DNA from: Candidatus Omnitrophota bacterium
Lineage (GTDB): Bacteria > Omnitrophota > Gorgyraeia > Zapsychrales > Zapsychraceae
Length of the DNA stretch: 47,307 bases
Assembly: GCA_016214285.1 (NCBI GenBank)
Contig: JACROV010000078.1
Span: 1-47,307 of the forward strand
Direction: 5' to 3'
Position 1 is the stretch's first letter. The number at the start of each line of letters is the position of its first letter. Positions 1-47,307 of the stretch are shown here, piece after piece. The translations under genes and the position numbers were made by a program. Under the pieces are notes generated by a model, which made no database searches, was not told the DNA's origin, and saw only the letters and a program-made list of their open reading frames with translations.

Positions 1-448
<448 letters not shown>

Positions 449-631
449 ATTTTACTTTTGTAAGATAGAAAATTGTTGTCCCTCTTATTCTTTTCGAATA
501 AGAGTTCGATTAAAGTTAGTTTCAGATTCTTCACTAAACTTGGCTTTTTTTATTTTATGTGATCAGTGGTCAGTTCTCAGTGTTCAGACATTGACTGATC
601 ACTGATCACTTGACCACTGACTCATTCTTTT

Positions 632-719
632 CGGGCCCGTAGCTCAGCTCCGACGTTCGCTAACGCTCAGTCGGAGTCCCGACCGCTACGAAGTAGCGCG
701 TCGGGATTGGTTAGAGCAC
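632..719 (+). pseudogene. Partial tRNA-Ile copy interrupted by a 59-nt two-hairpin insert
   Basis: GGGCCCGTAGCTCAG (632-646/647) then insert CTCCGACG...CGTCGGGA (~648-706) then TTGGTTAGAGCAC (707-719); the flanks join exactly to the intact tRNA-Ile starting at 745. No anticodon arm follows. Confidence 0.85.
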
Positions 720-744
720 AATCGATGCCCACATGAGTTTTTAG

Positions 745-821
745 GGGCCCGTAGCTCAGTTGGTTAGAGCACGTCCCTGATAAGGACGGGGTCAGCGGTT
801 CGAATCCTCTCGGGCCCACCA
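745..821 (+). tRNA. tRNA-Ile(GAT), CCA encoded
   Basis: gggcccgtagctcagttggttagagcacgtccctGATaaggacggggtcagcggttcgaatcctctcgggccca-cca; full cloverleaf. Confidence 0.96.
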
Positions 822-982
822 CTTGACTTTCCTATTTATTTTTAGGGAAAGTCAAGTGTTGTCCCGAGCATCATTATTTTTTGACTCGGAATGCGAGGGG
901 CTGTCCCTCGTCTGCGCGAGAAGAAAATTCTGAGACTCGGGACTAGACCCAGATTTATCTGAATAAAATATTGTGGTAATCT

Positions 983-1055
983 GGGGCTGTAGCTCAGCTG
1001 GGAGAGCACCTGCTTTGCAAGCAGGGGGTCAGGAGTTCGATCCTCCTCAGCTCCA
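983..1055 (+). tRNA. tRNA-Ala(TGC)
   Basis: ggggctgtagctcagctgggagagcacctgctttTGCaagcagggggtcaggagttcgatcctcctcagctcca. Confidence 0.96.
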
Positions 1056-1249
1056 TAGCCGGAGTTGAGGGGAAAGACAGCGGAAAAAATAAGATTTGCG
1101 AAATAAATTTTAATGAGTCATCAGACGTCAGACATCGGTCGCCAGCATTTTTTTGCTGATGACTGAAAACTGATGACTCAACTGTTCTTTGACAATTATG
1201 TAAGATAAAAAGCGGAAACAATTCAGCCGATTTTTTATTGTAGAGAAAT

Positions 1250-4222
<2,973 letters not shown>

Positions 4223-4306
4223 TATTTACAAAAGAGTCTGCTGAAGTGTTCCGGGTTTTGTCTTACATAATTGTCTACCTATTGCCAATGCAATTGGCGA
4301 AATGTT

Positions 4307-4424
4307 CTCCGGTAACTTTACCGAAGGGGCTACACCCGTTCCCATTCCGAATACGGCAGTTAAGCCCTTCGAGGTCGATGGTACTCTAGTCGCAAGGCTA
4401 TGGGAGAGTAGAACGTTACCGGGT
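4307..4424 (+). rRNA. 5S ribosomal RNA (ends approximate)
   Basis: ggggctacacccgttcccattccgaatacggcagttaagcccttcgaggtcgatggtactctagtcgcaaggctatgggagagtagaacg. Confidence 0.93.
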
Positions 4425-32859: not shown

Positions 32860-33450
32860 TTAGCTTCTTTTTTTACGTAATCCGACAAACCCTAAAAGGC
32901 CGCTTCCCAGCAAGGCCATGGTCGCCGGTTCGGGGACTACACCATTATCTGTTGGCGGCGGTGTTTGACCATCATAAGTAAGATCATCCATGACCCAAAA
33001 ATCTGGGCTAGGCGTATTGATAACCACCTGATCAACCGATCCATTATAACCCGTGGAGAAAAAAGTAGGAACACTGCTGGGGGCAAATGTACCGGTACTG
33101 TGGACTAAAGTTGAGCTTAAGTAGAGGTCCATTTGAACGGTTGCATAGTCGTAGCCAGAAAAATAGGAACCATTATAAACCACCGGACTTACAAAACTCC
33201 AGCTTGGCGTAGTGTCGCTGGTACTTTCGTATGTCCTGACAATTCCGGATGACGGATTATAAGGAGGTTGAGACCAATTATAGAAGAACCAGGACCCGTT
33301 TTCCCAGTTAATGATTCCCTGATATGGGTTAAGCGACGACAGGTCACCATTAGTCAATTCTTCAAAAGTAAGCACCGTTGCACTTGCATTTCCCACCATC
33401 CCAAAAGCCAGTACCATTGCCACTGCCACCACTAGAATCAATTTCTTCAT
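32860..33450 (-). CDS. PEP-CTERM sorting domain protein
   Basis: MKKLILVVAVAMVLAFGMVGNASA signal; C-terminus VPEPATMALLGSGLLGFVGLRKKRS. Confidence 0.9.
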   Translation of the reverse strand: MKKLILVVAVAMVLAFGMVGNASATVLTFEELTNGDLSSLNPYQGIINWENGSWFFYNWSQPPYNPSSGIVRTYESTSDTTPSWSFVSPVVYNGSYFSGYDYATVQMDLYLSSTLVHSTGTFAPSSVPTFFSTGYNGSVDQVVINTPSPDFWVMDDLTYDGQTPPPTDNGVVPEPATMALLGSGLLGFVGLRKKRS

Positions 33451-33517
33451 CTTCTCTCTCCCCTCATTAATGGTTACCTTTCCCACTGATTTAGAATAAA
33501 TAATCCAATGCCGCTAT

Positions 33518-34393
33518 TTATCGGGCACCTTCACCCGTGAATACTACGCGGACGGTTCTAAAAAGAATGCGTACATCCGTCCACAGGCAGAGTTTTTTAA
33601 TATAAAGAAGATCGTATTTGATCTTTTTCCGGACGTCTTGAATGGTCTCATCGTAGCTGTGCCACACCTGGGCCAGTCCGGTGAGCCCGGGTTTTACAGC
33701 CAAACGTTTTTCATAATCCGTAATTTCCTTTTTAAATTTCTGGACAAACACGGGACGTTCCGGCCGCGGGCCGATCAAGCTCATTTCCCCTTTTAGGATG
33801 TTGATAAACTGCGGGATTTCATCGATATGCGCTTTGCGCAAGAATCTGCCGATGGGGATAATCCGGGGATCGTTATTCTCCGCCCAAACGGGGCCGGTTT
33901 CTTTTTCCGCGTCAACCCGCATGGTGCGGAATTTATAAATTTCAAATAATTTTCCGTCCTTCCCGACGCGGGTTTGGGTGAATAAAACCGGCCCTTTGGA
34001 AGTGCATTTGATCAGAATGGCCGTAAGTAAAAATAAAGGTGACAGGAAAACGATCCCGAATAAAGAAGCGATGGTATCAAACGCGCGCTTGACCATATGG
34101 TATGTTCTGCGGACAAAGCTGGCCGCCATGCCCAAAACACCACCCCCGAATAACATCATCGTGGATGGTTCTGGAGCGCGCGACCGCGGCTTCTCCGTTT
34201 GGTCAGGTATAGCCGTAACGGCTGGATGTTGGGTTGGCTGCTGTACTGAAGTCGTTGTGTCATGTGGCATGATAGAGGATAACGCGGCCCCCGCGGCGGT
34301 CACGAAAAAGACACTCGCCGCAAGCATACCCGTGATCAGGGCAATGTTCAAAACTTTTTCTTTAATGGAATGCATCGAATTTCTCGAGTTCAT
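33518..34393 (-). CDS. Sugar transferase (initiating polyprenyl-phosphate glycosylphosphotransferase) with N-terminal PEP-CTERM-like module
   Basis: RAPEPSTMMLFGGGVLGMAASFVRR followed by KRAFDTIASLFGIVFLSPLFLLTAILIK, KFRTMRVDAE, LRKAHIDEIPQFINILKGEMSLIGPRPERP. Start may be M7 (34375). Confidence 0.92.
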   Translation of the reverse strand: MNSRNSMHSIKEKVLNIALITGMLAASVFFVTAAGAALSSIMPHDTTTSVQQPTQHPAVTAIPDQTEKPRSRAPEPSTMMLFGGGVLGMAASFVRRTYHMVKRAFDTIASLFGIVFLSPLFLLTAILIKCTSKGPVLFTQTRVGKDGKLFEIYKFRTMRVDAEKETGPVWAENNDPRIIPIGRFLRKAHIDEIPQFINILKGEMSLIGPRPERPVFVQKFKKEITDYEKRLAVKPGLTGLAQVWHSYDETIQDVRKKIKYDLLYIKKLCLWTDVRILFRTVRVVFTGEGAR

Positions 34394-34696: not shown

Positions 34697-35347
34697 TCAG
34701 GGCAGATATTTTTGCAGGTACGGAAGGATCATGCGTCCGAAGTCTTTCAATTTCTGCGCGGCGTTTGCGTCGTCCTCTTCCTTCTTTGCGGAAATCGAAA
34801 TGCGGATCAGGGCGCTGCTGGAAGGCTGGCCGAGGAAAGATTTCAGAGCAATAAGTCCTTGCTGTTTCCAATAGTTGGGCGTAAACGTGTCCCCCACCTT
34901 GAACCAATAAAAGAATATTTGTCTTTCTCTGCCTTGCTCAACTGTCACCCGATTGACCTTGATGTCCTTTAGTGCCGATGAATCGGCACTAAAGGAGTCA
35001 TGAACATTGCTCAAGATGGTTGCCCCGCTTCCCGTGTAACAGACTTCAGGGGGATGGGAAACCTTGCGGTTATTTTGGGAATAAACAATGAAGAGGTACG
35101 CCTCCTCCCCTCGCGGATTGGTGTAACGGCGGACAAAAACGTTGTCGGTCTCCAAAATGGCTTTGTCTTGCCGGCTGATCGGGATCTCTTCCGCGCTCCA
35201 GTCGGCGATTTTTTGTGGGAAGGAGTGGATGCTCACAGTATCTTTCTGGCTGTAGACCTTAAAATAGAGATGCCAGGAGATCGCGGCGGATATGAGCATC
35301 AGGGCGATGATGAGGATGTGATTTTTGTCGTATGTTTTGTTTTTCAT
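34697..35347 (-). CDS. Exosortase-associated EpsI family protein
   Basis: FPQKIADWSAEEIPI ... YSQNNRKVSHPPEVCYTGSGATI; located directly downstream of exosortase. Confidence 0.88.
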   Translation of the reverse strand: MKNKTYDKNHILIIALMLISAAISWHLYFKVYSQKDTVSIHSFPQKIADWSAEEIPISRQDKAILETDNVFVRRYTNPRGEEAYLFIVYSQNNRKVSHPPEVCYTGSGATILSNVHDSFSADSSALKDIKVNRVTVEQGRERQIFFYWFKVGDTFTPNYWKQQGLIALKSFLGQPSSSALIRISISAKKEEDDANAAQKLKDFGRMILPYLQKYLP

Positions 35348-35372
35348 GGTTTTGATTTCTTTGCCTACGTAT

Positions 35373-36191
35373 TTATTCCAGAATCTTTCCCACCGCGTAC
35401 AACAAGATGAATGCCAGGGCAAAGACCATGAAGCCCGAGAGATCATGGACAAAGCCGGTGGCGTATTCCGCCCCCCAGACTTCGGAAACGAACGATAAAA
35501 AGACGATCCGCAGGACATTCGTCGCGACGGCGATGGGGATCGTCGAACAAAATAAAATGGTCCGTTTGTACGTCGGCCCCTTCATCCACCAGGCAAAAAT
35601 GCTTCCCAGGGCGGTTAAAGAGATCAGTGACCGCAGGCCGCTGCAGATATCGTCCACCACCACATAGGTATGCTGCATTTTAAGGATGCTTCCGGAGCGG
35701 ACAGCCACCAGTCCCATGCCATTTAGGGCGGCAGTGGCGATCTGCGCGGCGAAAATTTTCATTTTGAAGCTGATATTGGTAATCACAACCAGGGGAACGG
35801 GGATCATGAAGATCAGAAAGCAAACGGGAAAGATGATCTTTTTAAGAATTTTTGAGCCGTAGACGAACAGGATCAACCCGGAGAGGACGATCAACATGGA
35901 AAAGCCGGAGGTAAAATAAATGCGAAATAGCGAACTGCCCAGGTGAATGATCAAACCGGCGACGATAAGCGGCATCCCCCATGGGGATCGCTTGGGACGG
36001 ATCGCCGCCAATTCCCCGCGCATTTGCCAGATCAGAAATCCGCTGACAAACGGGATCAGGATGCCGTGGCTGTAATAGGAATCCCGGGCGAACCACCGGT
36101 CCCACATCCAGAGGGAGGTTGGGATGTAGGTGAGGATAAACATCCCCGCGAGGAGAAGTTCGGCAGTGTGGGATTTAAGTAAATTTTTCAT
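35373..36191 (-). CDS. Exosortase
   Basis: YSHGILIPFVSGFLIW, VVDDICSGLRSLISL (Cys), NVLRIVFLSFV (Arg), FVHDLSGFMVF (His). Confidence 0.95.
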   Translation of the reverse strand: MKNLLKSHTAELLLAGMFILTYIPTSLWMWDRWFARDSYYSHGILIPFVSGFLIWQMRGELAAIRPKRSPWGMPLIVAGLIIHLGSSLFRIYFTSGFSMLIVLSGLILFVYGSKILKKIIFPVCFLIFMIPVPLVVITNISFKMKIFAAQIATAALNGMGLVAVRSGSILKMQHTYVVVDDICSGLRSLISLTALGSIFAWWMKGPTYKRTILFCSTIPIAVATNVLRIVFLSFVSEVWGAEYATGFVHDLSGFMVFALAFILLYAVGKILE

Positions 36192-37357
36192 GTTTTTTCT
36201 TTTATCCCCCTGGCTTTTTCCCACGTGACTTCCTGTTTTGAACCAAAAAAACGTAATGTTCCTGCCAGCGCTGAAAAGTTCAGCAAACAAAAGACATACG
36301 GTATGTAACAGATTTTAGATATGAGGTTAAAGATACCATGCTTCTGGTATCTTGACAAGGCTCCTGTCACGGCCATCCCGTAAAAGACAATTTGCAGATA
36401 AAACATGATTTGGTATAACGGTTCGCCGATTAGGAGCAGATCCAGGATAAACAGCAGAATTAAAAATAACGGTATAAGCACCCGCAATAGTTTGTGTGAG
36501 AATAACTGGATGGCTATTGGGCTGCACAACGGGTTAAAGAGGTCAGGGAAAAGACCGAAAATTTGATAATTCCCGAAAAGCGTCCGGGTCTTGCGGCGGT
36601 GCTCTTCGCGCGGGCTGTCCGCCGCCTGATCATAGGCCTTGGCGGATTCATCCATAACCGCCCGATATCCTTTACGGATGATCTGTAAAGGGACAAACAT
36701 GTCATCCAGGACGATCCCTGCAGGGATCGGGACGAACAACTCCCGCCGGATGGCGTAAATGGCTCCTGTAGCGCCGAGCATGGAATGAAGACGGCTTTCG
36801 CGCGTGCGGATGAATTTTTCGTAATTCCAGTACAGGCCGACGCCTTTGGCCGTAGCCCCCTCTTCCTTCTTTTCTTTAAAAATAAGTTCGCCGCTTACGC
36901 ATCCCACGTGACGATCGGCAAGATTTGCCACGAGCTCCCGGATGGCGTTGGGAGCGAACGTTTGCCGCGCGTCGCAAAAAACGATCGCTTCATTTTTGGC
37001 CGCTTGGACAAGCTCGTTGATGGCCGCCATTTTTCCCTGGCGCCGCGGCCGTTCGATCAAATGGATCCGCGGATCGTTGAAGCCGCGGATGACCCGGGTC
37101 GTTTTGTCGGTGGAACCGTCCGAGCCGATGAGGATCTCCATTTTCTCTTTGGGATAATCCAGGGACAAAAGATTCCGGAGTTTTTCTTTTATAACATCTT
37201 CTTCATTCCAGACCGAAAGGACGACTGAAATTCTTGGTTCATAACTCCCCTTTTGGACAGGGTTTGACCATAACTGCGCCATGAGCCATAACAGCAATGG
37301 ATAGCCGAAGTAGCAGTAGAGCGTGAGTGATATAAGGATCCAGAACGCGAGGATCAT
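36188..37357 (-). CDS. Family 2 glycosyltransferase, membrane-bound
   Basis: PRISVVLSVWNEEDVIKEKLRNLLSLDYP, ILIGSDGSTDKT, AIVFCDARQTFAPNA; TM helices. Confidence 0.93.
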   Translation of the reverse strand: MILAFWILISLTLYCYFGYPLLLWLMAQLWSNPVQKGSYEPRISVVLSVWNEEDVIKEKLRNLLSLDYPKEKMEILIGSDGSTDKTTRVIRGFNDPRIHLIERPRRQGKMAAINELVQAAKNEAIVFCDARQTFAPNAIRELVANLADRHVGCVSGELIFKEKKEEGATAKGVGLYWNYEKFIRTRESRLHSMLGATGAIYAIRRELFVPIPAGIVLDDMFVPLQIIRKGYRAVMDESAKAYDQAADSPREEHRRKTRTLFGNYQIFGLFPDLFNPLCSPIAIQLFSHKLLRVLIPLFLILLFILDLLLIGEPLYQIMFYLQIVFYGMAVTGALSRYQKHGIFNLISKICYIPYVFCLLNFSALAGTLRFFGSKQEVTWEKARGIKEKT

Positions 37358-37893
37358 AATTGAGACACGAACTGAACCATTACTTTATGGCCCAGCGCTC
37401 CAACGACTTGTTTAATAGTCAAAAGGCTGACATTATCGCGGCCGCTCTCAATGCGTGAAATGACCTGTTGGGACACGCCGAGCTTTTGAGCCAGACCGCT
37501 TTGTGTTAAACCGGCTTGCTTGCGCAAATTTTTGATCTGTTCCCCCACATCCCGGAACAGTTCCTCCCTCGGAGGAATCGTTTTGAGGGGCCGGATGGTG
37601 ATGCCTTTTTCCCTGAATGTTTCCGTCACTTTTTCATGGATGGCCTGCCAAAAGATAATCCTGTCTTCAGTCCATTTATCCTGCCGCATTTTTTTCTTGA
37701 TACGTTGCCAGTTGCGGAGAAAAATATTTTTAGGAAGGTAGTTTTTAAAAACTTCTTTCGGTATATTTTTTCTGGCCAGAAGAAGCGCGGCAAGTTCGGC
37801 AAACTTCGGATGCCGCTCATCCGTCAGGATATTTCTAATTTTTTGGGGAGGGATATTCCGGTCCCACAGCCAATCGGGTTTTTTTACCGTCAT
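37354..37893 (-). CDS. XRE-family HTH protein with N-terminal domain of unknown function; candidate antitoxin
   Basis: VGEQIKNLRKQAGLTQSGLAQKLGVSQQVISRIESGRDNVSLLTIKQVVGALG; ATGA overlaps on both sides. Confidence 0.85.
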   Translation of the reverse strand: MTVKKPDWLWDRNIPPQKIRNILTDERHPKFAELAALLLARKNIPKEVFKNYLPKNIFLRNWQRIKKKMRQDKWTEDRIIFWQAIHEKVTETFREKGITIRPLKTIPPREELFRDVGEQIKNLRKQAGLTQSGLAQKLGVSQQVISRIESGRDNVSLLTIKQVVGALGHKVMVQFVSQL

Positions 37894-38606
37894 TTGACTT
37901 CCTCCGCCAAAAGCGCGCCCACTTCATTTTTAAAATATTGATCCATCCGGCGAAAATCAATGGTTTTTTCCGTGACCAAATCCAGCATGCCCGTTTTTAT
38001 AGCCATCCGGTCGAATGTGCGATACCAGCGGATCAGGCCTTCCTTGACGGTTGCCGTCCCATAGCGCGCAACAAATTTGGCCAGAGGCGTCGAAATACTG
38101 GAAAGGCAATATAGATCATAAAAATCCTTAGCTTCCTGCCGGCCTCCGATGGTGATATGCTGGCCGACATCGTTTTGTGATGCCGTATGGCCGGCCACGG
38201 CATAAAGTTTTCTTAAGTAGATGTCTTCCAGAGAAACAACGTAAATACCGTCAACGTCTCTCAGAGGCTTAACGACCCGGACAAAGTCTTCCACAAAATC
38301 AATCTTGCACGTTTTTTCTTTTTTGTCCGTAAGCGTATACATCATGATCTTGGCGAATTGGTCCCCCGTTTTTTGGGCAACCAATTCCGCTTTCATGTTG
38401 AGTTCTTGCCGAAGGCAGGTTATGGCTTCCGCGATTTCTTTCGGTGAGAAAGATTTTGTAAAAAAGTCCAGATCATACGATTCCCGGTGTTGAAAATAGT
38501 AAAGCGACAAAGCGGTCCCGCCAACCAGGTAATAATGGTCGAGCTTGCCGGCCAGGCATGTTAATAGCCGTTTTTGTATGGAGAAATTTAGTTTGGATAC
38601 CTTCAT
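37890..38606 (-). CDS. AbiEii/AbiGii-type nucleotidyltransferase; candidate toxin
   Basis: YYLVGGTALSLYYFQHRESYDLDFFTKSF; KIDFVEDFV; AKDFYDLYCL. Confidence 0.88.
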   Translation of the reverse strand: MKVSKLNFSIQKRLLTCLAGKLDHYYLVGGTALSLYYFQHRESYDLDFFTKSFSPKEIAEAITCLRQELNMKAELVAQKTGDQFAKIMMYTLTDKKEKTCKIDFVEDFVRVVKPLRDVDGIYVVSLEDIYLRKLYAVAGHTASQNDVGQHITIGGRQEAKDFYDLYCLSSISTPLAKFVARYGTATVKEGLIRWYRTFDRMAIKTGMLDLVTEKTIDFRRMDQYFKNEVGALLAEEVK

Positions 38607-38611
38607 GGCCT

Positions 38612-38641
38612 GAATATACAACAAATATGTTGTGTTGTCAA
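38612..38641 (-). promoter_or_regulatory. Sigma70 promoter with palindromic operator inside the spacer
   Basis: Minus strand TTGACA-ACACAACATATTTGTTG-TATATT (17-bp spacer); palindrome ACAACA-TATT-TGTTGT at 38618-38633. Confidence 0.75.
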
Positions 38642-38668: not shown

Positions 38669-38700
38669 AAGTAGGGGCGTATTGTAATGCGCCCCTACTT
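38669..38700. repeat. Palindromic element GTAGGGGCG...CGCCCCTAC
   Basis: AAGTAGGGGCG-TATTGTAATG-CGCCCCTACTT; supplies the stop codon of the deacetylase. Confidence 0.8.
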
Positions 38701-39486
38701 CATCTTCAGCATCATCCGCCGGATCCAGTCATAAACGGACCCGCCCAACACTTTTTTTACACCGTTTTTGCAAGACCCAAGGACCATTTCCTTGAAGGGC
38801 GCTTTTCCATCGAGCGCTTGGGCGAAGCGGTCGATGGTCCAGTTCGACTTGACGGCAACGCGGCTGAAACAGTTTGTTCCAGCGCCTGACGGCGCTGGAA
38901 CAACGCCGTCAGGTTTTTCGGACACAAAAATATATCGATATCCCGCCTCACTGGCCATGCGGATGATCTTCTCGTTGCAGAATCCGCGCGGGATCGAAAT
39001 GCTTTCAACCGGGACCCCCAGGTTACGTTCCAGGTGTTTTTTGGAAGCGGAGAGTTCCTCCTGGATCTGCGTGTCCAGCAGATTGGTGAGGATCTCATGG
39101 CTGAAACCGTGGGAGCCGATGATCATCCCTTCAGCATTAAGTTGACGGATCTGGTCCCAGCCCATGTACCCATCCTTGCCGATGCGTTTGGCGATCAGGA
39201 AAAAGTGGCCGATAAATCCGAATTCCTTGAGCAATGGCAGAGCGACGGTGCAATTGTTCATTTCCCCGTCGTCGAACGTCAGAATGACCTCCTTGGTGCT
39301 AAAAACGTCCAGATTTTTACGGATGGTGATGGCCCGATAGAGGTGTTCTTTAAGCCACCCCAATTGGGCGTGGAAATTCTCCGTGGTGACGTCATAGAGA
39401 TCGGCGCCCGTTTCGCGCTTCCGCGGCATCGGCGTCTGCGGCGCAACGATCCCGTGGTACATGAGGACTATGGGTTGAGTGATCAT
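38695..39486 (-). CDS. Polysaccharide deacetylase family protein
   Basis: PIVLMYHGIVAP, VILTFDDGEMNN, GSHGFSHEILT, ISIPRGFCNEKII. Confidence 0.92.
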   Translation of the reverse strand: MITQPIVLMYHGIVAPQTPMPRKRETGADLYDVTTENFHAQLGWLKEHLYRAITIRKNLDVFSTKEVILTFDDGEMNNCTVALPLLKEFGFIGHFFLIAKRIGKDGYMGWDQIRQLNAEGMIIGSHGFSHEILTNLLDTQIQEELSASKKHLERNLGVPVESISIPRGFCNEKIIRMASEAGYRYIFVSEKPDGVVPAPSGAGTNCFSRVAVKSNWTIDRFAQALDGKAPFKEMVLGSCKNGVKKVLGGSVYDWIRRMMLKMK

Positions 39487-40271
39487 TTATATCTCTCCAG
39501 TAGTTTATATTTGAAATTTTTAATGTTATCAAACCCGCTGACTTCGATGCGTCTGAGCTCATGAAGCGGCGTGTCGGGTTTATTGACGCCCGGTATGACG
39601 CTTAACGCGTACCGGAATCCCAGTTCCCGGATGATTTTTAGTGTATCCGCGTTATACTCGCCGTAGGGATAACAAAAGGTGTCCAGCCGCTCTCCCTGCG
39701 GCAGATTTTTATTTACACGGGCGCGGCTTTGCGCGATCTCTTCACGCTGGGTTTGGTAACTGAACTTGGGAAGATGCGGGTGGGACACCGTGTGGGCGCC
39801 GAAACTGATCCGGTTCGCGTACATTTCGGCGATCTCTTCCCAGCCAAGCATATCGCGTCCCGGAATATCCGCGTAACGGTTGAATTTTTGGTCGGTACCG
39901 ATGAGCCCGGTCGTCAAAAAAACGGCGGCTGGAAACCCGAATTTTCTCAAAACCGGGAACGCGTTGAGGTAATTATCCCGGTATCCGTCATCGAAGGTGA
40001 TGATGACCTTTGTTTTGGGATCTTGCCCGAATACCGCCGGATGCCCGGTCTCGAATTCCCTGAGACTGATCACCTGGCAGACGTTGGGATGCCGGTATAA
40101 GAACCGCATTTGCTCCGCGAAGGCTTTGGTGCGCGTGACGAGATTGTGCGCCGGCAGATTATCGTTGACGCGATGGTACATCAGGATGAGCACTCCCTCG
40201 GGAGAGTCGTATAGCCCCGCCAAATCTTTTACTTTTCTGAAGATTTTCTTGAACACTGATTCGTGCGGCAT
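39483..40271 (-). CDS. Polysaccharide deacetylase family protein
   Basis: VLILMYHRVNDN, KVIITFDDGYRDNYLNAFPVL, GAHTVSHPHLPK, FCYPYGEYNADT. Confidence 0.95.
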   Translation of the reverse strand: MPHESVFKKIFRKVKDLAGLYDSPEGVLILMYHRVNDNLPAHNLVTRTKAFAEQMRFLYRHPNVCQVISLREFETGHPAVFGQDPKTKVIITFDDGYRDNYLNAFPVLRKFGFPAAVFLTTGLIGTDQKFNRYADIPGRDMLGWEEIAEMYANRISFGAHTVSHPHLPKFSYQTQREEIAQSRARVNKNLPQGERLDTFCYPYGEYNADTLKIIRELGFRYALSVIPGVNKPDTPLHELRRIEVSGFDNIKNFKYKLLERYK

Positions 40272-40863: not shown

Positions 40864-41991
40864 CTAGATAGCCTTCCACGCATCGGGCTTTGCGACATAC
40901 CCTGAAGTACCGCCGCCGATCAACCCTTCGAACCCCGCGGGGACGATCTCATCAATTGTTGTGTCGGCATAATTAAATGCCTTTGTCGACCAAATCTCGC
41001 CAATGGCAATGCCCCCGTTGGCGATGACGCTGCCGTTAGTGACCGTCGTATCGTAAATGCCGTCAAAGTGAGCGATGCCATGGGTATAGATCACTCCGTT
41101 ATGACTGGATGGTAAAGCAACTGTTTCCAAATACCCTGCCCAGGAAATAATGTTAAGCTGTGAATCAGGCGCCGCGAAGCCCGTTTGATTATGGACAACT
41201 GTCCCCGTTGAAATAATAGTCATTTTTTGGTCCTTCTTCAACCCTTCCCCAAAAAGAATAATGACGTTCCCGTTGCCCTCGTCTCCCTCGACATAAATTA
41301 TTTTTTTCCCATCCAGGGAACTGTTGGGGGCCAGCAAGTACGTTCCGTTCCCCTTGATGTAGAGGACCTCTTCGGGGGGATAGTTTTGCAAGATGTCACG
41401 GTTGACCTGTACAAAATCGGCGAATTCATCCGCAATGCCGTTATTATTGGCATCGGGATAGGTCAGCGAAACAAGACCCGCGTTGACCCCCTCGTCCTTG
41501 TCTTCGATAAACACCCTTGAATGTTCACCGCGGTCAATTATTTTCCCGTTAAGACGCGTTTTATCATTAATGGCGACCATCGCCTTTTTACCGTCGATCA
41601 CAAGGTCGCCATTCGCGGAAACGGTGTTTCTGAAAACCTCCGGGGCTTTGGCCGGATATGTGATCTGTATGCTTTTTTCTATTCCGGCAAAGGTGCCGGT
41701 AGCCGTAACTGTGCGGTGCCTGAAATTTGAATCATCTTTTGTGACATGGATCATGCTATTGCCATCTTGTATGGTGTATGAACCTGTTTGATCCAGCATC
41801 CGCGGGTCTTTCATAAATGTATTTATTCCGGCTTCAGCAAGCCAAAAGGCGGCCGTTGTAAAGTAATGCCGGCGGGCATAGTTGTGCTCGTTGATATTAA
41901 AACTCGCGATCCCCGCGGACAGCGTGAGCAGGACGAACAAAACAATATAAGCCAATATAAGCACAGCCCCTTTATTGTTCAGCTTTTTCAT
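40864..41991 (-). CDS. PilX-like / type IV pilus-assembly-like protein
   Basis: MKKLNNKGAVLILAYIVLFVLLTLSAGIASFNINEHNYARRHYFTTAAFWLAEAGIN. Confidence 0.65.
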   Translation of the reverse strand: MKKLNNKGAVLILAYIVLFVLLTLSAGIASFNINEHNYARRHYFTTAAFWLAEAGINTFMKDPRMLDQTGSYTIQDGNSMIHVTKDDSNFRHRTVTATGTFAGIEKSIQITYPAKAPEVFRNTVSANGDLVIDGKKAMVAINDKTRLNGKIIDRGEHSRVFIEDKDEGVNAGLVSLTYPDANNNGIADEFADFVQVNRDILQNYPPEEVLYIKGNGTYLLAPNSSLDGKKIIYVEGDEGNGNVIILFGEGLKKDQKMTIISTGTVVHNQTGFAAPDSQLNIISWAGYLETVALPSSHNGVIYTHGIAHFDGIYDTTVTNGSVIANGGIAIGEIWSTKAFNYADTTIDEIVPAGFEGLIGGGTSGYVAKPDAWKAI

Positions 41992-42514
41992 TCCGTTCCT
42001 TTTGGGGTTTAAACCGGCTGGTCCTGGCTCTGAAGGCCACTTGTTCTTTGAGGTTCAAATCTATTGGCTGTATCACATTGGGTTTGGATTTCGCGCTGAT
42101 ATCAATAGAAATTAAATCCCCCGTTATGACATAATTAACGGAAGAAATATTGTTAGCGATAACTCTCGTGCCTGAACTATCCTGCCGGATCAGTTTGTTC
42201 GCGTCCTCTCCGCTGCCGGTCCAAAGATAGGAAATTTGTCCCGCGGAAGGCTTTAAGAAATTAAGCCTCACGCCGGGAGGAGTCTCCTCTTTAACGATCA
42301 AGGCCCCCCTGGCCTCACGCAGTTCATTGGTTAAGACAAGCAATGCCATGCGGACCTGCTGTCTTGCCATAATGCTGTCGACATAATAGCTCCACGTTCT
42401 CTCGCCCGCAAGAAATGTCGCGTAGATGCCGGCCAGAATGGAAACCGACAATACGGTCGTTACCATGACTTCGACCAAACTAACGCCTTGTCTGGTGTTT
42501 ATTCTCATTTGGTT
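41972..42514 (-). CDS. Prepilin-type N-terminal methylation protein (PilW-like)
   Basis: MRINTRQGVSLVEVMVTTVLSVSILAGIYATFLAGERTW; start inside ORF 41972..42562. Confidence 0.8.
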   Translation of the reverse strand, partial: NQMRINTRQGVSLVEVMVTTVLSVSILAGIYATFLAGERTWSYYVDSIMARQQVRMALLVLTNELREARGALIVKEETPPGVRLNFLKPSAGQISYLWTGSGEDANKLIRQDSSGTRVIANNISSVNYVITGDLISIDISAKSKPNVIQPIDLNLKEQVAFRARTSRFKPQKERNEKAEQ

Positions 42515-42897
42515 AATTTGGTTCTTAAAGTAATTTGATTTGTCCGTAATTGTCTTTGCCAACTGACGGTTATTTGAATATTTAAGGGATCGCTCGCGGG
42601 ATCGGCAAAGTCAATGCTAAACGCTTCCGCGGGAAGCGTATTCAGGCCATGATCCTGGGCCCACCGCGCCCAATCAGTATTGACAATGCCGGCAAGAGAA
42701 CCGCGGGCCTGCATTTCTTCAAGCATATGTTCGGCGTTTGATGTCGCCACCGTCATGTCCCAGGCAGTGGCAGCCGATAACATCGAGCTGGTATATAACA
42801 TAAGGACCGCGGATATCCCGACCGACAAAATAAAGACCGCTAGGAGCAGTTCAATAAACGTAAAACCCCTGTTTCGTAGCTGCCTTATCCTGTTCAC
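42505..42897 (-). CDS. Prepilin-type N-terminal methylation protein (PilV-like)
   Basis: MNRIRQLRNRGFTFIELLLAVFILSVGISAVLMLYTSSM. Confidence 0.85.
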   Translation of the reverse strand: MNRIRQLRNRGFTFIELLLAVFILSVGISAVLMLYTSSMLSAATAWDMTVATSNAEHMLEEMQARGSLAGIVNTDWARWAQDHGLNTLPAEAFSIDFADPASDPLNIQITVSWQRQLRTNQITLRTKLTK

Positions 42898-43062: not shown

Positions 43063-46000
43063 CTAGTCGCCTGATAACCAACGCAGCATCTTTCGCCAAA
43101 GACCAGTGATCCGTATTATGGTCTTGTCTAACGGTGTTTCACTTTCTGTTTTGGTCAAATTCACATTTTCGTCAGGCTGATTTTTGTCAGATTTGACTGT
43201 CGGTTCAGACGCGACCTCTGCTTGCGCTGCAATGTCATCCCGGGTTAGACTGATCGAGGTATTATCCGTCAGATGTAATGACGGGGTAATTAAAACTGAG
43301 TCGGTTTTATTCACTGGTACAGGTTGAGGAGTTGTTGTTGGGGCCGCTCCTTTTGCCGATCGAGAAGGTGTTGCCTGGGGTGCTCCCTTTATTAAATTTG
43401 AAGACAATTCTCCTGGCAGCGCCGTTGACTTTACAGGCGACGGCGTATCGGAAATGTTTGCCGGCACACCCGTTCCTTTTCCGGCGGCACCTATTAAACT
43501 TGTCCCACCTCTTCCAGACCCCCCGCGTGATTTCCCACCGCCCCCCCTGCCTTCGCCACCGCGACCACCCCCGCCAGAACTTCCTGTGCTTGTATTCTGC
43601 GTTCCGCCGCCACTACTGCTGGTCAAAAACACTGGCTGAGAACTGCTTGGTTCAACAGATTTAGCCTTGACGTCTCCAGATACTCCTGTACCCGTATTTT
43701 TAGACTCGCTGCCACTATTGCTGGTCAAAGACACTGGTTGAGAACTGCTTGGTTCGGTAGACCCGACTTTGACATCACTGCTTTCTGTAGAGATGTTTGC
43801 CGTCGAGTTGTTATCACTAATCGGCCCGGGTGTCAGAGCAAGGTTGTTATCTGGTCTGGAAAGCAAGGGGGGTGAGTTTAATGTTAATGACTCTTGTTTC
43901 GGCTGAGACTGGGGCGTTGGTTGGACTTTAGGCTCGAGATTACAGCTATTGGCGTACCAGTAATAGCCCCGCCCTTCACATTCACTTTTGGTCGAGCAAT
44001 ATTGAATACCGTCCGTGCAGGTCAGTGGTTTCGGCTGGGCGTTGCAGGTGTTGTTGTACCAGAAGTAGCTTTGTCCTTCGCAGGCAATCTTGGTTGTGCA
44101 GTACTGGATACCATCGGCGCAAGTCTTTGTTTTGGGCTGCGCGTTGCACGTATTGTTGTACCAGAAGTAATTTTGTCCTTCACAGGTGGCCCGGGTTGTG
44201 CAGTACTGGATGCCGTCCACGCAAGTCAGCGGTTTAGGCTGGGCGTTACAGGTGTTGTTATACCAGAAGTAGCTTTGTCCTTCGCAGGCAATCTTGGTTG
44301 TGCAGTACTGAATGCCATCGACGCAAGTCTTTGGCTTCGGTTGCGTGTTACACGTATTGTTGTACCAGAAATAGCTTTGTCCTTCGCAGGCGATCTTGGT
44401 TGTGCAGTACTGAATACCATCAGCGCAGGTCTTTGGCTTGGGCTGTGCGTTGCACATATTATTGTACCAATAATAGCCCTGCCCTTCACAGGCGGTTTGT
44501 GTTGTACAATATTGAATACCGTCTGCACATGTCGATGGTTTAGGTTGAGCATTGCAAGTATTGTTGTACCAATAATACCCGTTGTTGGTACAATCCGTCT
44601 TGGTCAAGCAATACTGGATACCATCCACGCAGGTCTTGGGCTGTGGTTGGGCATTGCAGACGTTATTGTACCAGTAATGCCCGTTGTTAACGCAATCCGT
44701 CTGGGTTGTGCAATATTGAATGCCGTCCACGCAAGTCAGCGGTTTCGGTTGCGCGTTACAGGCATTGTTGTACCAATAATGGCCGTTGTTGACACAATCC
44801 GTCTGCGTTGAGCAATACTGGATGCCGTCGGCACAGGTAAGTGTTTGCGTAGTTTCTCCACGAACAGAACCGTATTCCAGCGCCCCAATGTCCCATGTCG
44901 AACCACGGTCATAGCCGTTATAATCAAGGCTTGATTTTCCTGTCAAGACAAGTGCGGCATCTTTAGCCGGGCTGTCATTTTTAAGATAAGCGTTATATCC
45001 ACTTCCGCTATAAAAGCCAGTAGAAGTTTCCTGGAATTTAGGATCTGCACAAATCGAATGAGTTCCTTTATTTTTACAAACTGTTTGATTACTTTTTACG
45101 TTCCAAATGAGAGAATAATCTTCATTAAGTTTCAACTGACCGCAAGGGCCATCCCCATTTCCACTCGTCCCGCCTGCCCAATAAAGGCAGGAATTCTCAA
45201 AAGGCTGCTGAAAATCTGTTCCAGCAGAAAATATGGTATTTCTCGCGGTTAAAGTTTCTGAACCATCACAAAAACTGGCACCAGAAAGCACCAAACAGTC
45301 CCCATTGCTTGTTACCGTTGAATTGTAGATGCCAAAAGAATGTCCTGGCTTTGGGGAAAAACCTATGGCATTCCCTTGCGCACGGCAATTGTCAAAACCT
45401 GGAGATCGGGTTGACGTAAACGGCTGATTATTAAAGTAGGCACAGTTACCGATGATTATACTGTTATCAATGGTAGTTCCAGTTCCTGTTTTCACCTGAT
45501 TGCCGGCATTGCCTTCAAACCTTGAACGCTTGATTGTTATTATGCCATTCCCATCATGATAAAGTAGATCCAATCCGTCAGAAGTGTTATGACTGATATT
45601 GCATTCATTAAATACCCAATTGGCCCCTGTCAGATGCGTCCCTAGTCCATCTCCATAACCACCTTGACTTTGCGACCAGCACCCTTGAGGCTGCTTTTGT
45701 GGATATGTCTCACCACAACCGTTCCATTCAATGCGAACCTTATTGAACGTCATTGTTCCAGAATTGGATGATTGATTAGCTCCAATGTCCCCATCCCAAC
45801 CGACCCACCCGTTGCCCACGATTTCGGTCATATCAATAGTCCAATCCTTCAGTCTTCCTGCATGAATTCCTGTATGCCCAAGCCCATGAACCTTAACATT
45901 TCTTAATAGCACGTTTGAACTGTCTGTAGCTTCAATTCCTGTAGAGGCCCAATCTCCAAGCGAAGGAGCCTGACCGTCACGAATACAACCTATTTCTGGA

Positions 46001-46551
46001 TGAAATTCAACGCAGCCTGATCGATCTGTAATATTAAGGCATTGCATTTCGATGTTATTGCTATTTCTTAAATTGACAACCATAATTGCTCTTTGCGTTC
46101 CCCACAATTCCGGAGGATTGCTGCAGCCTGTATCCCATCCTTTTCCTAGAATTCGTGTTGGATGTAAAGGATCCGGACCTGAAGGAACAGCTTTCATATA
46201 ACAGTCATATGACCAAGATGCATTACAGCTAGTTGTATTGGGCGCATTCCAACCCATCTTGTATTGAGCGTTGTTAGAACCGTCAATAATTAAAGTGTCC
46301 CCACCCTGTAATTTGGTAGAACTTTGATCTTTAGGAGTTATTACCCAAAATGGGTGCGAAAAGGCGCAGGGTTGATTGTTTCCAGAACCTAGATAGGGCG
46401 CGTCGGTTAAACCCGTACACTGGGTGGCCGTGCCTCCATCGGGCCGCACATAATAGGTCGCGCTGTACGCGGGCGAAATAATAAGGAAAGCTAGTCCCAC
46501 CGCAACGACAAGTCCAAAAAATCCGTGTTTTAATGTATATCGGTTCATCAA
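43063..46551 (-). CDS. Secreted parallel-beta-helix-like protein with nine 34-aa Cys-rich repeats and low-complexity C-terminus
   Basis: Signal peptide; N-terminal region with right-handed beta-helix-like features; TCxDGIQYCxTxxxCxxxxYxWYNNxCNxQPKP repeats; Gly/Ser/Pro-rich tail. Confidence 0.85.
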   Translation of the reverse strand: MMNRYTLKHGFFGLVVAVGLAFLIISPAYSATYYVRPDGGTATQCTGLTDAPYLGSGNNQPCAFSHPFWVITPKDQSSTKLQGGDTLIIDGSNNAQYKMGWNAPNTTSCNASWSYDCYMKAVPSGPDPLHPTRILGKGWDTGCSNPPELWGTQRAIMVVNLRNSNNIEMQCLNITDRSGCVEFHPEIGCIRDGQAPSLGDWASTGIEATDSSNVLLRNVKVHGLGHTGIHAGRLKDWTIDMTEIVGNGWVGWDGDIGANQSSNSGTMTFNKVRIEWNGCGETYPQKQPQGCWSQSQGGYGDGLGTHLTGANWVFNECNISHNTSDGLDLLYHDGNGIITIKRSRFEGNAGNQVKTGTGTTIDNSIIIGNCAYFNNQPFTSTRSPGFDNCRAQGNAIGFSPKPGHSFGIYNSTVTSNGDCLVLSGASFCDGSETLTARNTIFSAGTDFQQPFENSCLYWAGGTSGNGDGPCGQLKLNEDYSLIWNVKSNQTVCKNKGTHSICADPKFQETSTGFYSGSGYNAYLKNDSPAKDAALVLTGKSSLDYNGYDRGSTWDIGALEYGSVRGETTQTLTCADGIQYCSTQTDCVNNGHYWYNNACNAQPKPLTCVDGIQYCTTQTDCVNNGHYWYNNVCNAQPQPKTCVDGIQYCLTKTDCTNNGYYWYNNTCNAQPKPSTCADGIQYCTTQTACEGQGYYWYNNMCNAQPKPKTCADGIQYCTTKIACEGQSYFWYNNTCNTQPKPKTCVDGIQYCTTKIACEGQSYFWYNNTCNAQPKPLTCVDGIQYCTTRATCEGQNYFWYNNTCNAQPKTKTCADGIQYCTTKIACEGQSYFWYNNTCNAQPKPLTCTDGIQYCSTKSECEGRGYYWYANSCNLEPKVQPTPQSQPKQESLTLNSPPLLSRPDNNLALTPGPISDNNSTANISTESSDVKVGSTEPSSSQPVSLTSNSGSESKNTGTGVSGDVKAKSVEPSSSQPVFLTSSSGGGTQNTSTGSSGGGGRGGEGRGGGGKSRGGSGRGGTSLIGAAGKGTGVPANISDTPSPVKSTALPGELSSNLIKGAPQATPSRSAKGAAPTTTPQPVPVNKTDSVLITPSLHLTDNTSISLTRDDIAAQAEVASEPTVKSDKNQPDENVNLTKTESETPLDKTIIRITGLWRKMLRWLSGD
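43921..44838 (-). repeat. Nine tandem 102-bp coding repeats (918 bp)
   Basis: Each unit 34 aa starting TC(A/V/T)DGIQYC; 9 x 102 = 918 bp counted from the sequence. Confidence 0.95.
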
Positions 46552-46611: not shown

Positions 46612-46758
46612 ATTACGTTGGGGTATTGTCGGCTAATCCAGCCGACAATAAAAAACCTATTCTCTGTTACTTCCCACAAAGAATAGGTTAGCGTTGTCCA
46701 TGGCGACTTCATCACTGTTGGCAACTGGCTGCCCTGTGCCTCGCGGCCGAGGGCCCTA

Positions 46759-46811
46759 CCCCGACGCTTCGGTCGGGGTCCCTATTTCCAGCTTCGCTGG
46801 AACGTCGGGAT
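46759..46811. repeat. Two-hairpin palindromic element related to the tRNA-Ile insert
   Basis: CCCCGACGCTTCGGTCGGGG-TCCC-TATTTCCAGCTTCGCTGGAA-CGTCGGGAT. Confidence 0.6.
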
Positions 46812-46946
46812 AGCTTTGTGTCCCACCCTTTCGAGTGGTTTACCTTTTTACGAACAGCCTATTTTTTCGATCCATGGGAAGTATGCCATGCCGTTTTCAT
46901 TGTGTCAAGGCCACGACAACAAAGGGTGCATCCCAGTTTCGGGGGG

Positions 46947-47185
46947 TTAATTCCAGCGGGAGTTTTGCACGCGGCCCCAGTCATCGTTGAGATAAGCCAC
47001 CCGTAAACACAGCAGATGTTCAGCGCCTTTTCGTGACCATCTCATCCCGGATCGTTTGAATCGATGACCGATCACATGCTTGCATCCCGCCTCTATCACG
47101 CCAGAGCCGATATGAAAACCCAGCCGCTTATACTCATCATACTTCATATGGTCTTCGTGATTCTTCTGACCTTCCCCAATCCAGT
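46947..47185 (-). mobile_element. ISKra4-family transposase C-terminal fragment
   Basis: HWIGEGQKNHEDHMKYDEYKRLGFHIGSGVIEAGCKHVIGHRFKRSGMRWSRKGAEHLLCLRVAYLNDDW; 5' part missing at IS3 junction. Confidence 0.8.
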
Positions 47186-47307
47186 GGACGTTTTATTAAG
47201 TTAGAATCGCCTGTCTTTCGTACTCAAAAGGGCTCAGATTGCCAAGCGTTGAATGAGCCCGTCTGCAATTGTAATACATTTCCACGTATTCAAAGATCTT
47301 TCTTTTC
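47186..47307 (-). mobile_element. IS3-family insertion sequence, right end with OrfB C-terminus (truncated by window edge)
   Basis: Minus-strand translation RKIFEYVEMYYNCRRAHSTLGNLSPFEYERQAILT*; TG-starting end TGGACGTTTTATTAAG. Confidence 0.85.

Follow-up and report, generated by a model that had tools for sequence, protein, structure and literature searches.

A probable cysteine-bead spacer behind a conserved beta-helix head at a riboswitch-preceded exosortase locus: a candidate surface protein of uncultured Omnitrophota

The window, that is, the whole 47,307-nucleotide stretch of Candidatus Omnitrophota contig JACROV010000078.1 analysed here, encodes on its minus strand a large, predicted secreted protein with a beta-helix head and an array of cysteine-rich repeats. 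On balance, we lean towards the view that this is a c-di-GMP-controlled surface protein whose polysaccharide-acting or polysaccharide-binding head is held off the cell by a spacer of disulfide beads. Support comes from the repeated, confident fold of the spacer unit, the swapping of stalks behind the head, the exopolysaccharide (EPS), exosortase and pseudopilin neighbourhood and a riboswitch match. Counted against it are a pTM of 0.49 for the modelled units, a VKOR that was not found, a head for which HMMs name no enzyme family and a 52-bp insert in the riboswitch. The genome concerned measures 1.82 Mb in 104 contigs and is 88% complete; among named relatives, Omnitrophica WOR_2 bacterium RIFCSPHIGHO2_01_FULL_52_10 comes closest. 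The protein is composed as follows.

43063-46548, minus strand: gene of the beta-helix/Cys-repeat protein, 1161 aa, ATG start, with an in-frame TTG one codon upstream
46459-46548, minus strand: signal peptide MNRYTLKHGFFGLVVAVGLAFLIISPAYSA, read from the sequence
44872-46455, minus strand: predicted right-handed beta-helix head (PF13229, AlphaFold, Foldseek, conservation)
43921-44838, minus strand: nine 34-aa units with four Cys each (TRF, Cys spacing, four-unit fold)
43066-43920, minus strand: Cys-free tail of 285 aa, rich in Ser, Gly, Thr and Pro (composition)
from about 43134, minus strand: amphipathic helix ending the tail, ...DKTIIRITGLWRKMLRWLSGD (hydrophobic moment)

The first-pass annotation had described a secreted, beta-helix-like protein with a Cys-rich spacer between its head and a Gly/Ser/Pro-rich tail. 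This outline stands: a signal peptide can be read, the head matches PF13229 and is modelled as a beta-helix, the position of the spacer is supported by translation, unit alignment and Cys spacing, and the composition of the tail agrees. The C-terminal helix has the top hydrophobic moment among the 268 windows of the tail. A role as exosortase substrate was considered and rejected, the protein ending in this helix and giving no PEP-CTERM match.

The ORF translation contains nine units in direct succession, each exactly 34 aa (102 bp) long, as first proposed, and TRF picks up the array independently. Cys residues occupy unit positions 2, 9, 15 and 27 in 9/9 units, and the 36 Cys of the array keep a 7-6-12-9 spacing with zero exceptions. 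The claim that unit length does not vary is valid for the window genome only, where the unit is confined to this one protein; in relatives the unit measures 33-36 aa, and it is nearly always the linker behind the fourth Cys that varies. The near-identity of units 5, 6 and 8, earlier taken as a sign of recent duplication or conversion, is borne out by 31-33 identical residues of 34 and by the DNA bases shared per 102 (95 for units 6/8, 88 for 5/8 and 85 for 5/6). The remaining pairs, however, mostly lie further apart, many of them differing at numerous synonymous sites; most duplications are therefore old. The last unit is 93.5-100% identical at the DNA level among genomes G000, G005 and G001 and reaches about 70-72% at best with other units of its own array; in G000 and G005 the interior units show partial homogenisation. 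The last unit thus has orthologues throughout the genus, and turnover takes place inside the array, with the C-terminal end fixed.

An AlphaFold model of four units, for which the earlier suggestion had been three, was computed from an alignment of 27 four-unit rows. Each unit folds confidently (mean pLDDT 92.4) and with the same predicted pattern, in which residues 12-17 make a helix and residues 21-28 a hairpin, besides two short helical turns. Because the pTM is 0.49, the prediction does not fix how the units are placed relative to one another, and the array may be pictured as beads on a string, the shape of the whole string being left open. Of the "rigid stalk" suggested at first, the stalk is retained, as orthologous heads carry other repeat types at this place; the rigidity finds no support in the pTM of the chain. 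The four Cys of a unit plausibly form two disulfides.

The unit matches no well-described domain family among those searched; such a match would have counted against the first-pass annotation. Queries with the protein and with two units gave no family match for the unit in Pfam or NCBIfam at E up to 10. A profile search of the PDB had as its best match T-cell receptors at a meaningless E of 0.48, Foldseek matched neither the PDB (best E 1.9) nor a viral library (best 0.05), and searches of plasmids and phages were negative; identity with a known domain was rejected on these results. DUF4215/myxo_disulf_rpt was rejected as well, since the unit matches neither PF13948 nor TIGR02232 at E up to 10, whereas the homologues in G035 and G043 do match. 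In G062, a genome from a distant Omnitrophota family, three tandem four-Cys YWYN units were found with model A1 (2.3e-8) in an unrelated protein, so that the unit class extends beyond the window protein. A scan of viral contigs gave one weak half-unit match, an isolated CCEGLGYYWYDNKC motif of unrelated context in a phage-like protein (L090).

The head is predicted to be a right-handed beta-helix on three grounds. PF13229 is matched above its cut-off (9.6e-9; 35.5 bits against 25.9), AlphaFold gives this fold for the head with two units at a pTM of 0.81, and Foldseek finds beta-helix enzymes, with GH136 lacto-N-biosidases on top (3.6e-7), followed by PL9 (6.3e-6) and AlgE4 (3.4e-4) and including rhamnogalacturonan lyase and PL6 enzymes. 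HMM searches assign the head to no named enzyme family, and no PL family matches at E up to 10. Among 15 homologues, counting columns with at least 13 rows, 100 columns are invariant; they include 14 Cys and D223, D225, D271, D295, D298, K324 and R360 (numbered on the first row of alignment A4, counting the Ala that directly precedes TYYVR as residue 1). Such invariant residues favour an active or ligand-binding site.

The head occurs in 17 of the 81 genomes of the order, and in a class-wide sample all 11 head-bearing genomes belong to this same order. Identity is 53-63% in most order members and falls to 36% in distant ones. What follows the head differs. Units of the 34-aa type are present in 9, 9, 7, 14, at least 5 and at least 2 copies depending on the species, the sister species G005 having nine like the window and separately assembled relatives having 9, 7 and 14. 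In G026 and G054 the units are mixed with a second Cys module. DUF4215/myxo_disulf_rpt repeats stand behind the head in G035, G033 and G043, with a variant of them in G327, five Big_7 Ig domains in G319, and a Ser/Thr/Pro-rich chain in G032, G328 and G050; in G033 a CBM60 module comes after the disulfide repeats. The head is thus kept while the segment behind it consists of unrelated, mostly elongated modules, a pattern best read as that of a spacer. On these sequence comparisons, the array is well supported as an exchangeable spacer or stalk behind a conserved head family. Many of the proteins finish with Trp and/or basic residues (examples are GWWTKNTVRVK, RGWYWWRKN, KWSWWR and SSRRKW), and together with the hydrophobic moment of the terminal helix in the window protein this suggests that the helix may help to retain the protein at the surface.

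The second Cys module, CVPTWCDxPLIECGxTPxTGTDSCGNxCTKPSEEWPNC, alternates with 34-aa units at L065 5673-8189 and L066 4837-7148 and has no Pfam match in G026. Outside the phylum, a Chloroflexi homologue (L025, MAG HGW-Chloroflexi-1) consists of the head alone without stalk, at 48% identity; no exosortase gene was seen in the 7.8 kb covered there, and lateral transfer is possible.

Upstream of the gene lie the following elements.

46880-46908, minus strand: sigma-70-type promoter-like site TTGACA-17-CATACT, a 10/12 consensus match only, upstream of the riboswitch
46715-46857, minus strand: c-di-GMP-I (GEMM-I) aptamer, RF01051, with P1 arms CTGTT/AACAG, extent from the sister aptamer alignment
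46758-46809, minus strand: 52-bp two-hairpin insert within the aptamer (alignment with L063, fold)
46648-46689, minus strand: intrinsic-terminator-like hairpin (14 pairs) with a T run behind it (scan), the likely expression platform

By its sequence, the aptamer is assigned to the c-di-GMP-I class: it scores 44.8 bits with RF01051 against a gathering score of 35, the match itself covering 46784-46854, and 39.1 bits with RF03167, below the 59 of that family. Its full extent was set by alignment to the sister aptamer of G005 (L063:6150-6255). A G before and an A after the first short helix would mark the c-di-GMP type; the covariance-model alignment has both, and a cGAMP-type (GEMM-Ib) reading was therefore dropped. 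The 52-bp insert is absent from G005 and present in one copy in the window; it may impair the window copy of the riboswitch. The terminator-like hairpin has a nearly identical sequence in L063 and a similar CCTATTCTTTG... in several others. Seven homologous loci have a riboswitch of the same clan that scores above cut-off and directly precedes the head gene. The match in G328 is weak, in G327 no riboswitch match was found, and in G029 and G319 the contig starts close to the head gene. The aptamer of G328 (L096 13120-13290) apparently carries a different insert at another point. Upstream of the window riboswitch, transposase fragments can be made out by eye at 46890-47307 (an IS3-like rve C-terminus and another transposase end) up to the contig end.

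Downstream of the head gene, and presumably co-transcribed with it, follow these genes.

42505-42897, minus strand: PilV/GspI-like pseudopilin, 130 aa (PF07963 N_methyl, 2.6e-7)
41972-42562, minus strand: PilW/GspJ-like pseudopilin, 196 aa (PF07963, 0.0033, under cut-off; conserved position)
40864-41991, minus strand: putative PilX/GspK-like pseudopilin, 375 aa (conserved position and hydrophobic N-terminus only; no PilX_N or T2SSK match)
38695-40271, minus strand: two polysaccharide deacetylases (PF01522, 5.4e-26 and 1.9e-30)
36188-37357, minus strand: family 2 glycosyltransferase (PF00535, 3.1e-24)
35373-36290, minus strand: exosortase EpsH (PF09721, 7e-64; NCBIfam exosortase)
34697-35518, minus strand: EpsI (PF11984, 2.5e-34; NCBIfam EpsI_fam)
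33518-34393, minus strand: sugar transferase (PF02397, 1.2e-69)
32860-33486, minus strand: PEP-CTERM protein (PF07589, 1.4e-7)

Between the pseudopilin trio and the deacetylases lies a protein of 179 aa that is hydrophobic in an N-terminal segment, and a TPR protein and a sensor kinase/sigma-54 regulator pair come after the PEP-CTERM protein. The succession of head, pseudopilin trio, deacetylase/GT2, exosortase and EpsI recurs in several families of the order, with varying details. Inside this cluster, an AbiEii nucleotidyltransferase and HTH pair of toxin-antitoxin type occupies 37354-38624, and a similar pair is similarly placed in G005 (L063 14210-15459). The far end of the window (1-4424) is an rRNA operon with the 3' part of 16S (1-446), two tRNAs, 23S (1251-4220) and 5S (4308-4424).

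Taken as a mechanism, the favoured reading would run as follows. The c-di-GMP-I riboswitch would switch synthesis when c-di-GMP changes at attachment, in a direction that we can only infer. The protein would be secreted and then oxidised, for which the genome encodes a DsbA-like protein; no VKOR was found in its 88%-complete sequence. Nine independently folding, probably disulfide-stapled beads would form a semi-flexible and presumably protease-resistant string that keeps the beta-helix head at a distance from the envelope, while the Ser/Gly/Pro-rich linker and the Trp-rich amphipathic C-terminal helix would hold the protein at the envelope or surface. There the head would probably bind or act on the exopolysaccharide of the cell itself, the product of the same locus.

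A possible, if less probable, alternative concerns the adjacent pseudopilins, which might present the protein in the fashion of PilY1. In that case the trio would make up a tip complex, priming or extending a pseudopilus and moving the beta-helix protein outwards, where it would grip or process exopolysaccharide at the filament tip. The head gene directly precedes the trio in ten genomes (G000, G001, G005, G030, G033, G035, G043, G050, G319, G276), the trio being partly visible in G029, and at least seven long T2SSE matches and six secretin matches exist elsewhere in the genome. There is precedent in Myxococcus, where PilY1 and minor pilins constitute a priming tip complex (PMC7541494). PilY1.1, for its part, plays a part in motility that depends on EPS (PMC9109919). 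However, the window protein does not match PF05567, the PilY1 beta-propeller. The pseudopilins match the N_methyl motif only, in 14 of 22 trio members, and the 22 gave no PilX_N, T2SSK, PilW or T2SSJ match at E up to 0.01. Moreover, in the stretch covered for G032 and G327 the head gene is not followed by pseudopilins, and those of G328 are convergent to it. A bolder version, which we regard as rather unlikely, would be an exosortase-locus pseudopilus under control of the c-di-GMP riboswitch, the tip of which shows the polysaccharide-acting beta-helix head, mounted on a stalk that can be exchanged. It would be an EPS-devoted PilY1 analogue, with the 34-aa four-Cys unit as a new mini-domain family that supplies the beads.

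It is equally doubtful that the units are primarily ligand-binding modules for sugar or surface, repeated for avidity. In 25 aligned units Tyr8 and Trp22 are invariant and Tyr23 is nearly so; these aromatics could equally well serve ligand binding, which speaks against a pure spacer, and the CBM60 of the G033 homologue fits such a role. Yet they may be core residues of the 34-aa fold, and specific binding is hardly compatible with orthologous heads that carry DUF4215, Ig or disordered segments instead.

We see little reason to take the protein for a lyase or hydrolase that is secreted to attack polysaccharide for general nutrition and is placed at an EPS locus by accident. The Foldseek matches to GH136, PL9, rhamnogalacturonan lyase and PL6 would suit it, but several families of the order share the arrangement of this gene with the EPS/exosortase cluster, exosortases occur at EPS loci in most organisms (PMC12188702), and the riboswitch class is tied to surface lifestyle genes. 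Several related contigs do end within arrays (L065, L066, L068), but an assembly or binning artefact, which the first-pass annotation had considered, is rejected as having next to no probability, since a longest exact internal repeat of just 50 bp makes collapse or expansion unlikely and separate assemblies carry comparable arrays with an orthologous last unit.

The favoured reading of a surface protein on a bead spacer brings together a disulfide mini-domain that is uncharacterised, a pseudopilin trio, a second-messenger riboswitch and a beta-helix family spanning one Omnitrophota order plus one Chloroflexi genome. The bacteria concerned are uncultured, and how they attach to surfaces or hosts is poorly understood. 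Stalk types swapped naturally behind one head offer a ready comparison for stalk requirements, and the sister aptamers make a link from c-di-GMP to surface polysaccharide directly testable in this phylum.

Among known systems, DUF4215/myxo_disulf_rpt (PF13948, TIGR02232) is likewise a tandem Cys-rich extracellular repeat of similar length and occupies the exact place of the array behind orthologous heads in three genomes; its pattern, CGNG..E..EQCDDGN..DGCS..C, differs from that of the window units. The units of G062 (CDSQHLNLC...GGYWYNDKCN) share a similar Cys spacing and the GGYWYNDKCN motif and have HLNLC where the window units have DGIQYC; their protein carries PKD and MopE-type motifs, and no beta-helix head was found in it, unlike the window protein.

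At the level of the locus, HpsA and its pseudopilins may offer a comparison, and a literature search found no paper joining hormogonium polysaccharide with pseudopilins. The cyanobacterial hormogonium polysaccharide system with cyanoexosortase B links exosortase, EPS genes and surface behaviour (PMC12188702), a likeness to the window locus without demonstrated homology. PilY1 is likewise large and secreted, and its gene too stands together with three minor-pilin-like genes, whereas the window protein lacks its domain and is encoded at an EPS/exosortase rather than a pilus locus.

Concerning the head, the choice-of-anchor Q model (NF041518) matches the end of it with 17.4 bits, below the cut-off of 25, while the homologue in G327 reaches 33.8. 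GH136 (LnbX), PL9 (Pel9A), AlgE4 and RbmB share the predicted fold; identity of these beta-helix carbohydrate enzymes to the head is only 8-14%, with no family-level HMM match. In PL9, PpPel9a has Asp202, Asp226 and Asp230 in its Ca-binding set and Lys271 as base (PMC6627557). The head likewise has conserved acidic residues and a Lys, but their spacing agrees only in part, which makes the head at most a candidate PL9 member: D271 and D295 are 24 apart as in PL9, D295 and D298 are 3 apart (PL9: 4), and D298 and K324 are 26 apart (PL9: 41). RbmB, in turn, is a lyase of Vibrio cholerae, solved with Vibrio polysaccharide.
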